Source: Flavobacteriales bacterium (GTDB lineage: Bacteria > Bacteroidota > Bacteroidia > Flavobacteriales_D > Sanyastnellaceae). Taken from it: DNA of 36,712 bases. Below are positions 22,964-27,485 of the stretch, piece after piece; position 1 is the first letter of the stretch, and the number at the start of each line of letters is the position of its first letter. The notes beneath the pieces are model-generated. The model was not told the DNA's origin. It searched no databases and saw only the letters and a list, made by a program, of their open reading frames with translations. The position numbers and the translations under genes were made by a program. The stretch is taken from contig CANFLZ010000020.1 of assembly GCA_947448135.1 (NCBI GenBank), forward strand, positions 1-36,712, written 5' to 3'.

Positions 22964-22982
22964 TACAACAAATAGAAAAATA

Positions 22983-23014
22983 AAAAGGTCCGCAATTTTG
23001 CGGACCTTTTTATT
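22983..23014. terminator. Bidirectional terminator between convergent genes
   Basis: A5, GGTCCGC, AATTTT, GCGGACC, T5. It sits between 3-HAO (+) and the LPP20-like lipoprotein gene (-). Confidence 0.87.
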
Positions 23015-23031: not shown

Positions 23032-23637
23032 TTACTTTTGATCAGCAGCCATTTTTTCCATTTCTTTATTGAAAGTGTCTTTGAACTTTTCGTAGTTGTA
23101 ATCCGCTTTCAACTTCTCATTAGCAGCCAATTTCTCGGCATAAGAGTTAGCCAAACGTTCACCCGATAATTCAATTGCAACATAGCTAACAAAAGAACCA
23201 TCTGGCTTTTGAGTCAACTTTTCGCAAATCTCAACAGCGCCTTTCAAATTTTGATCGACAACCGTGCGCGTCATTTCTTGGAAAGTTTCTGTGATTTCTT
23301 CTTTGTTGTTGAATTCTGAAGAGTTGACGTAATTGTCTCCTACAACCTTCATTGTAGCGCTGATAGACTTTGACAATTCAGACATGGCGTTTGATTTTGC
23401 TTTTTTCTTAGCGGTTTCGCGATCCATGCTCTCGCCAGTTGCAGTGGCGCGGAATGCATCTTTGGTACTCATGAATGATTCTCCAGAGCAGTATTCATTG
23501 ATTAATACCTCTCCTTGTTGTTTTGGATTCACACCAGTATCTTCAGATTTGGCAGCTCCTTTTTTCTTTTTACAGGCAGTCATTCCGAATCCTATGGCAA
23601 CCACCATGATCATCAAAGTAATTTTTAAAATTTTCAT
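23032..23637 (-). CDS. Small LPP20-like lipoprotein
   Basis: This 201-residue protein has a lipoprotein signal peptide (lipobox MTAC, Cys22) followed by a lysine-rich spacer. The segment DRETAKKKAKSNAMSELSKS (72-91) with the following SISATMKVV resembles the helix-strand core of LPP20-family lipoproteins, as in the 460-residue protein encoded just upstream. The C-terminal 60 residues are charged and helical. A promoter inside the upstream gene (TTTG, 18 bp, TAACTTTG) allows expression apart from the upstream operon. Function is unknown; an envelope role is inferred from location and family. Confidence 0.65.
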   Translation of the reverse strand: MKILKITLMIMVVAIGFGMTACKKKKGAAKSEDTGVNPKQQGEVLINEYCSGESFMSTKDAFRATATGESMDRETAKKKAKSNAMSELSKSISATMKVVGDNYVNSSEFNNKEEITETFQEMTRTVVDQNLKGAVEICEKLTQKPDGSFVSYVAIELSGERLANSYAEKLAANEKLKADYNYEKFKDTFNKEMEKMAADQK

Positions 23638-23685
23638 TTTTCTATTTTTTAGGTTAATTGTTTTTTGCGTTTACACGAATAATGC

Positions 23686-23715
23686 CAAAGTTACAAAATT
23701 GCTTGCAACATCAAA
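23686..23715 (-). promoter_or_regulatory. Promoter of the small LPP20-like lipoprotein (TTTG - 18 bp - TAACTTTG)
   Basis: Minus-strand TTTG (23715-23712) and perfect TAACTTTG (23693-23686) are 18 bp apart. The -33 element lies within the last codons of the upstream LPP20 gene. The predicted leader is about 40-45 nt. Confidence 0.6.
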
Positions 23716-25073
23716 TTGAGCCATTCGTCTTCTAATTTTATTTTTCCTTTTTTGTATGCTTCGACGCCAGCAGCAGGGATGCTGAGCTGCACGCCTTTTA
23801 TAGAATTTGTGTCGTTTTGATAACGGATATTATTCTCTTGGTTGTCTTTTAAGGTTAACTTCATTTCCAATATTGCGCTGGAAAAATCATTGGCTTGTCC
23901 AGCAGCTTTGGTGTTGGCCTCTATTTCAATGGTGTAATCTGCCTTGCTGCTGCTGCTGGTTTGATAGCCTTGCTGGGTCAAATAAGTTTGCGCAGCGATG
24001 GCCAGGAGTTGCTGTTGGTTGTTTTGATCGAATTCTCTTTCGATACTTTTGATGCAAAAAGTGGGTTTCACCAAATGAATGGGGATATTCAATTCATTGA
24101 CGGGTGTGGATTGGAGAATCTTACGACATATTTTATCATCTAAATCCGAAGGGATCATCGATTCTATATCCAGCTTGATTTCTAGTTGTGGTAATTTTGA
24201 ACTCATGGGCACATTGGCCACAGATACAGTGATTTTACCATTGGTTCCTGTTATGACTTTCTTGGCTCGGGTAAATTTATCGGTCGGAAAATGATAAAGG
24301 ATGGGAATTCCAATGGCGGGACTGCCGTTGTGCATCGCTTCAACGTCTAATGATTGGGCATAATTGTTTTTGCTATTCAAAACAACAGCGGACTCATCGG
24401 ATGTAAGCTTGAGTGCCGACATAATTCCCTGGATATCGGCATAAATTTGCTGATCTAACAACAGATTTTCTCCGTTGGGAGTGGTAAATGGATTGGATTC
24501 GTTCCAATACGGTTTGATGGCAAAAAGGGCGTGAAAGAGTTCGTCAATCGCAGAACCTATTTGATTGCGCTTTCTGGATGCAACGCTGCTTTCATAATGT
24601 TGATACGCCAGATTAAGCGCTTCGTTTTTCTTTCGTTCTTGTTGGGCTTGATAGGCCGATTTGCTGATGCGCAGATAAATCCAATATTCGGATTCATTCT
24701 CATAGATACCGACTGTTTCGTAATCTTCAAAAACAATATCGGTAGTGGTGTTGATGCTGGAGGTAAAGTCTTCTGAAAATACTTTATTGACCTCCATGGT
24801 GTTTAAAAAGCTCTGTCCTTGGACGCGCACACTCACACTGGAGGCCATGTCGCTGAGGGCATTTTTTTTGGCAATCGCTGCGTAGTCTACAGGATTTAGT
24901 TTTTTATTACAGCTGGATACTCCAATGTAATAGCCATTGCTGATGGGTCTTTGCAACACCCATTCCGGAGCGGGATTGACTTTGGGTAATGCAGAACTTT
25001 CTCCTCCTTTTGGGGTGACACATTGTGCCAAGGACACAGCGCAAAAGATCAGGAGGAAAAAATATCTTTTCAT
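23691..25073 (-). CDS. LPP20 family lipoprotein
   Basis: This 460-residue envelope protein has an N-terminal signal; Cys18 in LAQC is the likely lipid site, although Gln at -1 is unusual for a lipobox. Residues about 34-140 carry the LPP20 pattern (PAPEWVLQ, GYYIGVSSC, AAIAKKNALSDMASSVSV). A helical stretch and two further domains follow; IAAQTYLTQQGYQTSS to DYTIEIEAN near 370-395 looks like a second alpha/beta domain, similar to lipoproteins that sense or bind at the outer membrane. Its start shares one base with the CsgG-like stop (TAATG), so the two are translationally coupled. LPP20 relatives include FlgP, a flagellar disk protein, but no flagellar genes are present. Confidence 0.75.
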   Translation of the reverse strand: MKRYFFLLIFCAVSLAQCVTPKGGESSALPKVNPAPEWVLQRPISNGYYIGVSSCNKKLNPVDYAAIAKKNALSDMASSVSVRVQGQSFLNTMEVNKVFSEDFTSSINTTTDIVFEDYETVGIYENESEYWIYLRISKSAYQAQQERKKNEALNLAYQHYESSVASRKRNQIGSAIDELFHALFAIKPYWNESNPFTTPNGENLLLDQQIYADIQGIMSALKLTSDESAVVLNSKNNYAQSLDVEAMHNGSPAIGIPILYHFPTDKFTRAKKVITGTNGKITVSVANVPMSSKLPQLEIKLDIESMIPSDLDDKICRKILQSTPVNELNIPIHLVKPTFCIKSIEREFDQNNQQQLLAIAAQTYLTQQGYQTSSSSKADYTIEIEANTKAAGQANDFSSAILEMKLTLKDNQENNIRYQNDTNSIKGVQLSIPAAGVEAYKKGKIKLEDEWLNLMLQAIL

Positions 25074-26437
25074 TATTTCACCAATTCAAGCATCAATGAT
25101 TTGACCTGTTGTGCCATGTCGGCGGTGGCTTGCTTGTAGGCTTCTGATGACAATTCTTCAGCAGATTTTAAATCGCGTTGAATGGTGAATAGATTTCTAA
25201 ATCCTTGCACTTTGTCGTGTGCAGTTTGCACGTTACCACCTTCATTGGGATACAATGATTCTCTGTTGTAATCGGTGCGCGCGTAAAACACTTCATCTTC
25301 AACTTTTTTATTGATCAAAGCAGTTTTCAGCAATTCGCCGGTTTGCAAAGAGATCAATTTCATTTGTGCATCAATAGCGCTGTAACTCTTCCCGTAGTAG
25401 TAATCAAATTCGATAGGTCGATATTTGGTCACCATGATGGTTTGTCCGTTGCTGACTTGTTTTTCTTGAAATGCTTGAAAAGCAGTGCGTCTCTCACGAA
25501 CAACATTTCCTTTTTTCTCGTCTAATTTTAAAATACTTCCAGTAAGGATAATTTGGGCACCTACAATTTTACCAACTTCTACAGCGGTTTTGTCGTCAAC
25601 AATCCCACTCAATTGAAGTTTTTGTTCTTGTAAAATGGTCATCATATTTTCACGATCAACAATACGCAAGAAGGGGTCTTTGATAGAAGTTAACGCGGCC
25701 AAGGTGTAGGCAGAGAGCCCTACTTCAGCTCCGCTTGATTTGGTACCGTTTGTAAAGGGAAGAAGGGCGATGGTTACCGTTCCTTTCTCTAACGACTTGG
25801 ATTTTAAGGCCGATGCATCTTTATAGTTACTGCGTTTTTCGACCACCTTCGATAGTGATTCATACGCTGTTCTATATCGCCCCGCTTCAAACATAGCTTT
25901 GCCGTCTTTGTACAAGGGTTCTAGATAGGCAATGTCTTGAAGGTCTTTGGCGTCTTTGAAGTTGGGATCGAACTTCGAAATCTCTTTGAAATTGATTTCG
26001 GCTTCTTTGAATTGTTCTTGCTCCAATTGCGTTGTTCCTTTTTCATAGAGTTCATTGATATAGGCCTTTTTTACTTCATCAAAATCACTTTGGTACATAT
26101 CGCTGATCTCCAAATTCACACCAATTCCTGCAATTTTTTGTTGATACTCTTGAGCGCTTACATAAGCATATACAGCTTCACGTGGAGTGTTCATGGTTTT
26201 TTTGCGGCCAAATTCAACCAACTTTTGATTGAGAACGATTTGCCCTGTGCGCTTCATGCCCGCTTGCGCCTCCACGTAATTTCTTTTTTGACGTAGCGCG
26301 GAAAAATAACTTTCAGAAGCCTCAACTGATAAGCCGCTGGCTTCTTGCTTGGTACCTAGTTTTGTGTAATATTTTGGACCCTTGCAGGCTGTAAACGAAG
26401 TAAGAAGGCAGAAAAAAAGGATAACGTTGGTTTTCAT
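25073..26437 (-). CDS. CsgG-like lipoprotein with N-terminal helical repeats
   Basis: This 454-residue lipoprotein (lipobox SFTAC, Cys18) has two parts. Residues about 35-215 form TPR-like helices (YFSALRQKRNYVEAQ, QEQFKEAEINFKEISKFDP, MFEAGRYRTAYESLSK). From 220 a CsgG/HfaB-type domain follows: VTIALLPFTNGT, LRIVDRENMMTILQEQK, VGKIVGAQIILTGSI, then a strand-rich region and a terminal helix. CsgG is the nonameric outer-membrane channel that exports curli, but related CsgG-fold proteins (LpoB, TolB-N-like) only bind partners, so pore formation cannot be assumed. No csgA, csgE or csgF homologue is in the window. One base separates it from DUF4476 upstream; it overlaps the LPP20 gene downstream. 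Confidence 0.78.
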   Translation of the reverse strand: MKTNVILFFCLLTSFTACKGPKYYTKLGTKQEASGLSVEASESYFSALRQKRNYVEAQAGMKRTGQIVLNQKLVEFGRKKTMNTPREAVYAYVSAQEYQQKIAGIGVNLEISDMYQSDFDEVKKAYINELYEKGTTQLEQEQFKEAEINFKEISKFDPNFKDAKDLQDIAYLEPLYKDGKAMFEAGRYRTAYESLSKVVEKRSNYKDASALKSKSLEKGTVTIALLPFTNGTKSSGAEVGLSAYTLAALTSIKDPFLRIVDRENMMTILQEQKLQLSGIVDDKTAVEVGKIVGAQIILTGSILKLDEKKGNVVRERRTAFQAFQEKQVSNGQTIMVTKYRPIEFDYYYGKSYSAIDAQMKLISLQTGELLKTALINKKVEDEVFYARTDYNRESLYPNEGGNVQTAHDKVQGFRNLFTIQRDLKSAEELSSEAYKQATADMAQQVKSLMLELVK

Positions 26438-26438
26438 C

Positions 26439-27485
26439 TTAAGGGTTGATTTTTGAATTCAGTTCTTCAATTGAGCTTTCAAATTTAAAGGCATCGTTGA
26501 TTAAAAAATAATTTTGTGGGTCGTTGCAACGCGAATGAGCAAATGCGGCATATTCTACTCGATCCGTTTCGAAATCAAAAAGAGTAACAATTTCCTTGAT
26601 TTGCGCTGCACTCAAGCAATTGGAACCCGTGATTTGCTTGGCCAAGGTCATTTTACTGTCTGAAAATGATTTGGATTGGATGCTAGATTTTGCACTTTGA
26701 AAGCTGGCATTGTCCATCGGATAGCCACATCTTCCGGTTGGCGCTGCATTCGTTTGATTTTGTGGATGATCATGATGAGGCTTTTCGTGGGTGGAAGGAC
26801 GGCCTGAATTTCCAACGCTTCCGGATGTTTTGGTAGTCGTTGTGGTAGTTGTTGTCGTGGTTGTACTACTTGAGTTTTGATTGAATCCTGGGTCGGCTGG
26901 AACGTCCATGTTGATTCCCAAATTGACACCACCCATGTTGACATTGACATTCACTTTTTCATTTTGTGGATTTCCTCCTTTTTGAGAAGTGGTTGTCGAT
27001 TTCTGTGTAGTGACAGTGGTGGAAGTGGAAACGGGCATTTCAACAGGCATCGCCGGAGCCTCAACGGGTACAGCAACATTGTCAGGATCGCCAAGTGTAT
27101 TGATGGGCTCCACATATTGATAAGTGCCAGGAGGTAATTTTTGTGCAATGGGTTCTTTGGGACGCTCTGTGAAATAGCGCAATGCGTAGCCTTTTTTGGT
27201 CAATTTGATGACATAGGTAACTTCTAAGTCATACTTTACTGCAAACATTTTGCTAGTAAAATCAGGTAAATTGGGGTCTTCGAAATCAATTCGGGCCATA
27301 TAATATTCGGAGGCAAGGCCTTTGATTTTGACATTGGGGCGTGGATCTTCGTTGATGAGCTCCTCATTGAGGTAGATTTTGAAACGGTCTCCATTTTCAG
27401 AATAGACAATGGCGTCGGCAAGTTGGGATTGGGCCATCATTCCAAATGAAAGAATCCCTAAAAAGATGCATAAAATATGTTTCAT
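26439..27485 (-). CDS. Secreted DUF4476 protein
   Basis: This 348-residue exported protein has a signal peptide of about 18 residues (FGMMAQ at the end). The N-terminal domain (about 20-130) is beta-rich and begins ADAIVYSENGDRFKIYLN. The middle is low complexity: Val/Pro/Thr stretches, VNVNMGGVNLGINMDV, a run of about eleven threonines and a His/Pro segment. The C-terminal 90 residues (DNASFQSAKSSIQSKSF to the end) are a DUF4476 helical domain. The threonine run uses mixed codons, so it is not a slippage tract. It is first in the operon with the CsgG-like and LPP20 genes. A TATCTTCG box (27530-27523) lies upstream. Function unknown. Confidence 0.8.
   Translation of the reverse strand: MKHILCIFLGILSFGMMAQSQLADAIVYSENGDRFKIYLNEELINEDPRPNVKIKGLASEYYMARIDFEDPNLPDFTSKMFAVKYDLEVTYVIKLTKKGYALRYFTERPKEPIAQKLPPGTYQYVEPINTLGDPDNVAVPVEAPAMPVEMPVSTSTTVTTQKSTTTSQKGGNPQNEKVNVNVNMGGVNLGINMDVPADPGFNQNSSSTTTTTTTTTTTKTSGSVGNSGRPSTHEKPHHDHPQNQTNAAPTGRCGYPMDNASFQSAKSSIQSKSFSDSKMTLAKQITGSNCLSAAQIKEIVTLFDFETDRVEYAAFAHSRCNDPQNYFLINDAFKFESSIEELNSKINP

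Follow-up and report, generated by a model that had tools for sequence, protein, structure and literature searches.

A co-inherited trio of CsgG-fold and LPP20-type lipoproteins in Flavobacteriales as a candidate outer-membrane scaffold

Introduction

Flagellar disks and curli pores are the main settings in which the LPP20 and CsgG folds are known, and FlgO of the flagellar H ring has a TolB/CsgG-type fold. In the passages of the literature cited here, the Vibrio H ring is described as FlgT and FlgO, with FlgP likely associated (PMC6504787), and the ring-forming beta-hairpin of FlgP is inserted between the SHS2 helix and the second strand (PMC12222027). In Helicobacter, the lipoprotein FapH, whose gene accompanies flgP, makes a ring associated with the outer membrane, which was suggested to preserve barrier function during flagellar rotation (PMC11756786), and many matches to the CsgG family (PF03783) fall outside curli systems, the non-specific ones being likely paralogs of a larger family (PMC3521004). 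Here, we analyze a 36,712-nucleotide stretch of a Flavobacteriales bacterium (contig CANFLZ010000020.1 of assembly GCA_947448135.1), called the window below, in which four adjacent genes encode an exported DUF4476 protein (P1), a CsgG-fold lipoprotein with a tetratricopeptide-repeat (TPR)-like half (P2), a large LPP20 lipoprotein (P3), and a small LPP20-like lipoprotein (P4). We found that P2, P3, and P4 are inherited together as a unit that may be an undescribed structure of the outer envelope.

The locus shares parts with several described systems and departs from each of them. P2 is like the curli channel CsgG in its C-terminal fold, its lipobox, and where the first membrane hairpin lies; it differs in having a TPR half, a longer and more charged hairpin, and LPP20 proteins as partners. 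With FlgP and Lpp20 (PF02169, SHS2-like), P3 shares the LPP20 domain, in which a 38-residue insert lies at the place of the FlgP ring hairpin; it adds helical, Ig-like, and PelC-like domains. The trio also resembles the Vibrio H ring (FlgO, FlgP, and FlgT) in its parts list, LPP20-type and TolB/CsgG-type proteins under the outer membrane, whereas the order of the domains is different. Using one marker gene per system, we found neither CsgF (PF10614, for curli) nor the P-ring protein FlgI (PF02119, for the flagellar motor) in any of 40 relatives, the window's genome among them; controls were positive in E. coli for both and in Caulobacter and Thermotoga for FlgI. This agrees, on a single marker each, with an earlier note made from the sequence of the window, which had seen no curli or flagellar gene, and the clade appears to carry the trio without curli and flagella. 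The core fold of PelC, TraT, and PqiC is that of P2, and the C terminus of P3 is like PelC and TraT; however, the trio has extra domains, and no Pel, conjugation, or Pqi genes were recognized among six scanned neighbor genes. The Pfam LpoB domain covers about 50 residues of P2, which fails the NCBIfam LpoB equivalog (TIGR02722; 18.2 bits versus 110.55).

Our searches of the open-licence literature returned no description of LPP20 and CsgG together, also in combination with Bacteroidetes, and the only paper found there to mention DUF4476 concerns spiralian animals. An apparent mention of LPP20 in the Flavobacterium literature proved false, since a different gene name in the references had been matched.

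Results

Conservation and co-inheritance of P2, P3, and P4. A motif of P2 retrieved 81 loci, of which the best 80 (the named loci) were compared, P2 being in all of them by construction. P3 is present in 73 and P4 in 65 of these loci. The order P2-P3-P4 is intact in 65 of the 65 loci with enough contig, and in the remaining 15 the contig stops 0 to 486 bases past the last gene of the set. Within the window's family, P2 is matched in 98 of 101 genomes and in all 48 genomes with a completeness of 90% or more and a contamination of 5% or less. In five of the 98, including one of the 48, there are only weak matches (1e-5 to 1.3e-24), probably to paralogues, which leaves strong matches in 93 of 101 and 47 of 48. 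Among 20 family loci from 19 genera, 19 have the trio and the twentieth ends at a contig edge.

The same pattern extends to the order. By strong matches, P2 occurs in 47, P3 in 48, and P4 homologues in 48 of 120 sampled genomes: 47 have P2 and P3, none P2 only, one P3 only, and 72 neither. All 47 genomes with P2 have both P3 and P4, and the P3-only genome (G453) has P3 and P4. Outside the window's family (89 of the order genomes), the corresponding counts are 16, 0, 1, and 72, and P2 and P3 share one contig in all 16, -4 to 32 bases apart. These counts omit, for P2, 15 of 62 genomes whose best match is 6.3e-12 or weaker and, for P3, G422 (a fragment, E 1.2e-16) and G475 (9.8e-4), and they score G419 and G463 as P4-positive despite weaker matches (3.3e-30 and 1.5e-19) on other contigs, which may be a paralogue; Fisher values calculated on them ignore the relatedness of the genomes. 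The distribution is patchy, covering families f51, f53, and f54 and parts of f52 and f57, with no strong trio match among the genomes listed for f2, f55, f56, and f58 to f61 (a part of the match-free genomes). Inspection of six order loci showed an adjacent trio in five, and P2-P3 with a P4 homologue on a separate contig in the sixth.

Across 296 genomes of the phylum, strong P3 matches (E < 1e-60) were found in nine, strong P4 matches (E < 1e-60) in five, and full-length P2 (E < 1e-100) in two, both from the window's family; 62 further genomes have only weaker, mostly partial matches to the P2 profile. Three genomes from another family of the class (L147 to L149) have adjacent P3 and P4 with other neighbor genes and no P2 match. 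In distant genomes, a 206-aa CsgG-fold gene (CsgG, 1e-10) stands immediately before the P3 homologue (L152), and P3 lies near small LPP20-like proteins (L150 and L151). The P3-P4 and CsgG-LPP20 pairings thus recur beyond a shared neighborhood. The lipoprotein trio is real and co-inherited as one unit: the earlier note had proposed a gene-neighborhood survey for a CsgG-LPP20-DUF4476 set, and the set that proved to be conserved is CsgG-LPP20-LPP20.

Lipoprotein signals. The lipobox cysteine is present in 61 of 61 P2, 65 of 65 P3, and 20 of 20 P4 rows of the aligned families (alignments A4, A5, and A3, respectively; A4 omits L068, a near-copy of L067, as well as L118 and L146 [broken P2], rows of more than 480 aa, and contig-cut rows, and A5 omits rows of more than 480 aa and cut rows). 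Acidic residues after the lipobox are described as a surface-export signal in the cited part of PMC5080379. Such a signal, taken as two acidic residues at +2 to +6, occurs in none of the 61 P2 rows, none of the 65 P3 rows, and one of the 20 P4 rows, and because a signal of the kind reported there is missing, P2, P3, and P4 likely face the periplasm.

P2, a CsgG-fold protein with a TPR-like half. Pfam assigns P2 to CsgG (PF03783, 4.4e-9), at 36.4 bits against a curated cut-off of 20.8, and to LpoB (PF13036, 2.5e-5), with TPR below threshold; the own-genome match spans positions 7-153 of the 210 in the CsgG profile. At E 0.01 or better, CsgG is found in 61 of 61 and TPR_2 in 51 of 61 members of the P2 family. 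At the threshold searched, the CsgG family is matched once and the LPP20 family twice in the window's genome. The AlphaFold2 model of P2, built with 61 window or named-locus sequences (pLDDT 88.0), has predicted helices over residues 21-219, in support of the N-terminal TPR-like half that the earlier note had read from the sequence. The best Foldseek matches are CsgG (6l7a, E 7.5e-6; 4uv3, 8.8e-6). The VIA comparison places PelC first (Z 14.3, 2.1 A over 117 residues) and includes the DUF330 protein 2iqi (Z 14.1), CsgG 6lqh (Z 13.5; 6.5 A, 173), FlgT 3w1e (Z 13.3; 3.4 A, 141), the LPHT-ring chain 8z5n_0 (Z 12.6), and PqiC (Z 11.0). A sequence search of solved structures returned no CsgG for P2, only TPR and apparently chance matches. 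For the helical half, the VIA matches listed are 14-3-3 proteins only, a likeness that may reflect a common helical arrangement and nothing more.

In the model, the predicted strands 313-329 and 332-363 make a hairpin at the position of the first CsgG membrane hairpin, and the second hairpin region has the strand 369-387 and then only a short strand, 395-399. Of the CsgG beta-barrel hairpins that the earlier note had named as needed for a pore, the first thus has a counterpart in the predicted fold. The segment between ILTGSIL and KLISLQTGEL aligns with the CsgG segment between MVEGSII and LRVVNVSTGEIL; since the hhalign probability is low (5%), this placement relies on the motifs and the fold. 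The first P2 hairpin comprises 51-56 residues (306-358), versus 29 to 36 in CsgG, by choice of ends. The window's hairpin is 30% charged, and the family average is 32% (21% and 37% at the tip, 318-346); the second hairpin region is 29% and 24% charged, more than the CsgG hairpins (17% and 19%). The two-residue periodicity of the family profile is not significantly above shuffles, and on one scale z > 1.64 is reached by 5 of 61 single sequences in hairpin 1 and by none of the 61 in hairpin 2. This test has low power, since the CsgG hairpins themselves score on one scale each only: applied to the single CsgG sequence of E. coli, a test of this kind gave z 2.1 for hairpin 1 on one scale and z 1.7 for hairpin 2 on the other, with nothing on the remaining scale in either case. 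As such, it lent no support to a secretion pore by way of hairpin amphipathicity. Three tyrosines (Y323, Y339, and Y344) are nearly invariant, and this conserved row could face lipid. The low-confidence segment 261-291 is unusually conserved (a fraction of 0.044 of windows is as conserved).

Thirteen loci (L051-L063) contain a TPR+CsgG paralogue of P2 with 22-28% identity and no P3 or P4 match nearby; in the four of them whose neighbors were listed (L051, L053, L057, and L058), it adjoins genes reading like dephospho-CoA kinase and ribulose-phosphate epimerase. In genome G085 (L012), one TAA interrupts the match to the P2 orthologue, an assembly error or a broken gene.

P3, a multidomain LPP20 lipoprotein. 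P3 matches LPP20 (PF02169) at 3.5e-9 and 37.4 bits, above the cut-off of 25.9, and the domain was matched in all 65 members of the family. The AlphaFold2 model (65 sequences, pLDDT 87.5) predicts an LPP20/SHS2-like domain followed by a helical part, then an Ig/macroglobulin-like domain, and at the C terminus a domain like those of PelC, LptE, TraT, and FlgT. For the last of these, VIA matches include PelC (Z 10.8), FlgT 3w1e and the LPHT-ring chain 8z5n_0 (both 10.3), and TraT (10.0) among many tied rows, the LPP20 part being barely tested in this comparison. A sequence search of solved structures found the LPP20 protein 4kzs at 7.7e-4, or at 0.011 with a larger alignment. FlgT was rejected as a full-length homologue of P3 (Foldseek TM-score 0.21), since single domains alone match.

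The insert at the position of the FlgP hairpin has 38 residues in 65 of 65 rows, and pLDDT is low over 83-110. Residues 77-117 show periodicity on one of two scales only (z 1.9). We rejected the idea that the constant insert length in P3 and P4 is unusual (112 of 394 and 88 of 127 same-length windows, respectively, are also without length change), and the low-confidence segment 81-113 is not unusually conserved (0.274 of windows are as conserved). Directly upstream of a P3 homologue in a distant genome lies a lytic-transglycosylase gene (SLT + Mltc_N; L150:8611-9825, minus strand), a possible link to the cell wall, and a P3-like LPP20 protein (L153:6486-8396, plus strand) has an ARPP-1 domain as its C-terminal part (PF20208, 6.3e-58).

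P4, P1, and the layout of the locus. P4 matches the P3 family at E 1.9e-6 in one profile-profile comparison, which suggests that it has an insert of about 36 residues resembling that of P3; nothing credible was found for it in a sequence search of solved structures. A second LPP20 lipoprotein of the window's genome (194 aa, 26.2 bits; L166:6330-6914, minus strand) is encoded on its own beside genes reading like FKBP-type isomerases, and two or more P4-profile matches occur in 34 of the 48 order genomes that have P4.

Read by eye, P1 has a putative signal peptide and no lipobox. It is matched in 48 of 80 named loci, 13 of 20 family loci, and one of the six order loci inspected. It is unmatched upstream of P2 in the other 32 named loci, two of which are uninformative, since their contigs start no more than 75 bases from P2, and in seven family loci by single-sequence search. 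These absences rule it out as an essential partner, and DUF4476 as a core partner or cargo, which the earlier note had raised as a possibility, was not supported. With the trio intact in 65 of 65 loci and P1 matched in 48 of 80, P1 is optional, and the conserved unit consists of the other three genes. P1 (26439-27485) contains a run of about a dozen threonines, which is not a simple DNA repeat, because the codons are mixed.

All four open reading frames were confirmed on the minus strand at the positions given before (Table 1), with a gap of 1 base between P1 and P2, a TAATG overlap between P2 and P3, and 53 bases between P3 and P4. The earlier note had proposed an extra internal promoter; a promoter-like site precedes P4, and TAnnTTTG is above expectation at the P3-P4 junction (17 of 65 named loci versus 2.1 expected by shuffling), compared with 0 of 65 versus 1.2 at the P2-P3 junction and 5 of 80 versus 1.8 upstream of the operon; the TTTG-N18-TAACTTTG pattern is not enriched across the whole window (4 seen versus 2.3 expected). 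Terminator-like hairpins in the region number 6, versus 5.3 expected in shuffles. A divergent saccharopine-dehydrogenase-like gene is matched beside the set in 70 of 80 named loci. The window's genome is 2.5 Mb in size and 96% complete, and the public records matching the locus are all metagenome-assembled genomes (MAGs), mostly labelled Flavobacteriales. Five records (L067, L080, L105, L115, and L117) are labelled Chryseobacterium gleum or Euryarchaeota archaeon; these labels look wrong, and the records carry the locus as do the Flavobacteriales MAGs listed around them.

Table 1. Coordinates of the genes, predicted domains, and putative signals in the window
Feature	Position	Strand	Evidence
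P1: exported protein, Thr-rich linker, C-terminal DUF4476, 348 aa, optional first gene	26439..27485	-	Pfam PF14771 1.4e-18
P2: TPR + CsgG-fold lipoprotein, 454 aa	25073..26437	-	Pfam CsgG above cut-off; AlphaFold2 pLDDT 88.0
P2 residues 21-219, helical TPR-like half	25781..26377	-	Model secondary structure; TPR_2
P2 residues 220-454, CsgG/PelC-like domain	25076..25780	-	Foldseek CsgG, VIA PelC
P2 residues 306-358, extended and charged beta-hairpin in the position of CsgG membrane hairpin 1	25364..25522	-	Model strands, profile alignment to E. coli CsgG, composition, periodicity
P3: large LPP20 lipoprotein, 460 aa	23691..25073	-	Pfam LPP20 3.5e-9; AlphaFold2 pLDDT 87.5
P3 residues 36-137, LPP20 (SHS2-like) domain	24663..24968	-	Pfam 36-136; model: strand, helix, insert, two strands
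P3 residues 81-118, 38-residue insert	24720..24833	-	Between helix 64-80 and strand 119-125; place of FlgP ring-forming hairpin
P3 residues 221-301, Ig/macroglobulin-like domain	24171..24413	-	VIA matches to complement MG domains, Z about 10
P3 residues 327-460, PelC/LptE/TraT/FlgT-like C-terminal domain	23694..24095	-	VIA Z 10 to 10.8, tied rows
Promoter-like site before P4, TTTG-N18-TAACTTTG	23686..23715	-	Pattern match
P4: small LPP20-like lipoprotein, 201 aa	23032..23637	-	Profile-profile match to P3 family; 20 aligned members
Terminator-like hairpin after P4, 16-bp stem + T tail	22979..23014	-	Sequence pattern

Discussion

We favor, tentatively and with a little less than even confidence, the reading that P2, P3, and P4 form a periplasm-facing ring or disk scaffold at the outer membrane, a proposal modeled on predicted folds and on analogy with flagellar rings. 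It is preferred because the three genes are co-inherited, their pairings recur, their fold matches include ring-forming lipoproteins, the P3 insert lies at the place of the FlgP hairpin, and the surface-export signal is missing. P2, P3, and P4 would make one outer-membrane lipoprotein assembly facing the periplasm, in which the LPP20 (SHS2-like) domains of P3 and P4 and the C-terminal CsgG/PelC-like domains of P2 and P3 would build a ring or disk beneath the membrane. Projecting into the periplasm, the TPR half of P2 would offer a docking surface for other envelope proteins, extra P4 would be made from its own promoter, and P1 would act as an optional accessory. Such an assembly would work like the flagellar accessory disks and the H ring (FlgP, FlgT, and FlgO) without a flagellum, and the scaffold would organize or stabilize the outer membrane. 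Of this reading, the gene set, the co-inheritance, the lipobox cysteines, and the domain content are observed and the folds are predicted, whereas ring assembly, location, scaffold role, and extra P4 are inferred.

Several observations weigh against this scaffold. The core fold is shared with lipoproteins that do not form rings: Nir2, Cj1090c, HpaA, and LptE-like proteins lead the Foldseek matches of P3, and TolB is in the VIA list of P2. In the AlphaFold2 monomer, the P3 insert does not take the form of a hairpin, and the propensity of the insert is mixed, with strand over helix in 41 of 65 rows. The LPP20 match of P4 is below the Pfam cut-off (E 0.017; 16.0 bits versus 25.9), only 3 of 20 family members reach E 0.01, and the tie of P4 to LPP20 is indirect, by profile only. 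Moreover, the saccharopine-dehydrogenase-like gene that stays beside the set means that synteny alone is no proof of joint function. That gene, with the stability of the whole neighborhood, is what speaks for P2, P3, and P4 being neighbors by descent alone, with no joint action. We consider this very unlikely, given the joint presence and absence across families of the order (with the reservation on relatedness stated above), the overlapping starts, and the linkage of P3 and P4 beside different genes in another family.

The earlier note had offered a secretion pore or an envelope scaffold as the function, and of the two the scaffold remains the better guess. In a pore, P2 would be a CsgG-like outer-membrane channel for cargo, P3 and P4 a collar, and the TPR half the part that recruits cargo. 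CsgG does head the Foldseek list, the first membrane hairpin is represented and lengthened between conserved GS(I/V) and STGE(I/L)L-type motifs, and the window's hairpin tip has fewer charges than the family's and the nearly invariant tyrosines. However, the hairpin is charged family-wide and without significant lipid-facing periodicity in the low-power test, so that the pore is weakly supported; composition and periodicity together are weak evidence against a CsgG-type pore, short of refuting it. No cargo gene was recognized, CsgF is missing from the 40 relatives, and three class-mates have the P3-P4 pair without a P2 match. A pore is thus unlikely in our judgment. We think it distinctly improbable that P2 is instead an LpoB-like activator of a peptidoglycan synthase with P3 and P4 as envelope partners. 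The LpoB domain is above its cut-off in the window's P2 (24.6 bits versus 22.3), it reaches E 0.01 or better in 41 of 61 family members, and a P3 homologue is encoded beside a lytic transglycosylase in the distant genome L150, but P2 falls far short of the LpoB equivalog and scores higher with CsgG. To our knowledge, a TPR half and a long hairpin are not features of LpoB. A role in polysaccharide or lipid transport, as for the PelC or PqiC lipoproteins, is very unlikely in our view, since the P2 matches to PelC, 2iqi, and PqiC from which it derives share the core fold only and no transporter or glycan gene was recognized among the six scanned neighbors.

Beyond the scaffold itself, it is a doubtful but specific possibility that the trio is a flagellum-free relative of the flagellar outer-membrane disks, in which LPP20 rings of P3 and P4 would join a CsgG-fold ring of P2, with its TPR arms, in a large scaffold or gate attached to the outer membrane of non-flagellated Bacteroidota. 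If this is true, the H rings and basal disks of flagella would represent one application of an envelope module that is older than they are. A clade that has both folds as one unit, apparently without either machine, is a test of such an older and general role at the outer membrane. The trio may also show how flagellar disks were recruited, and it provides defined partners for gene families of unknown function.

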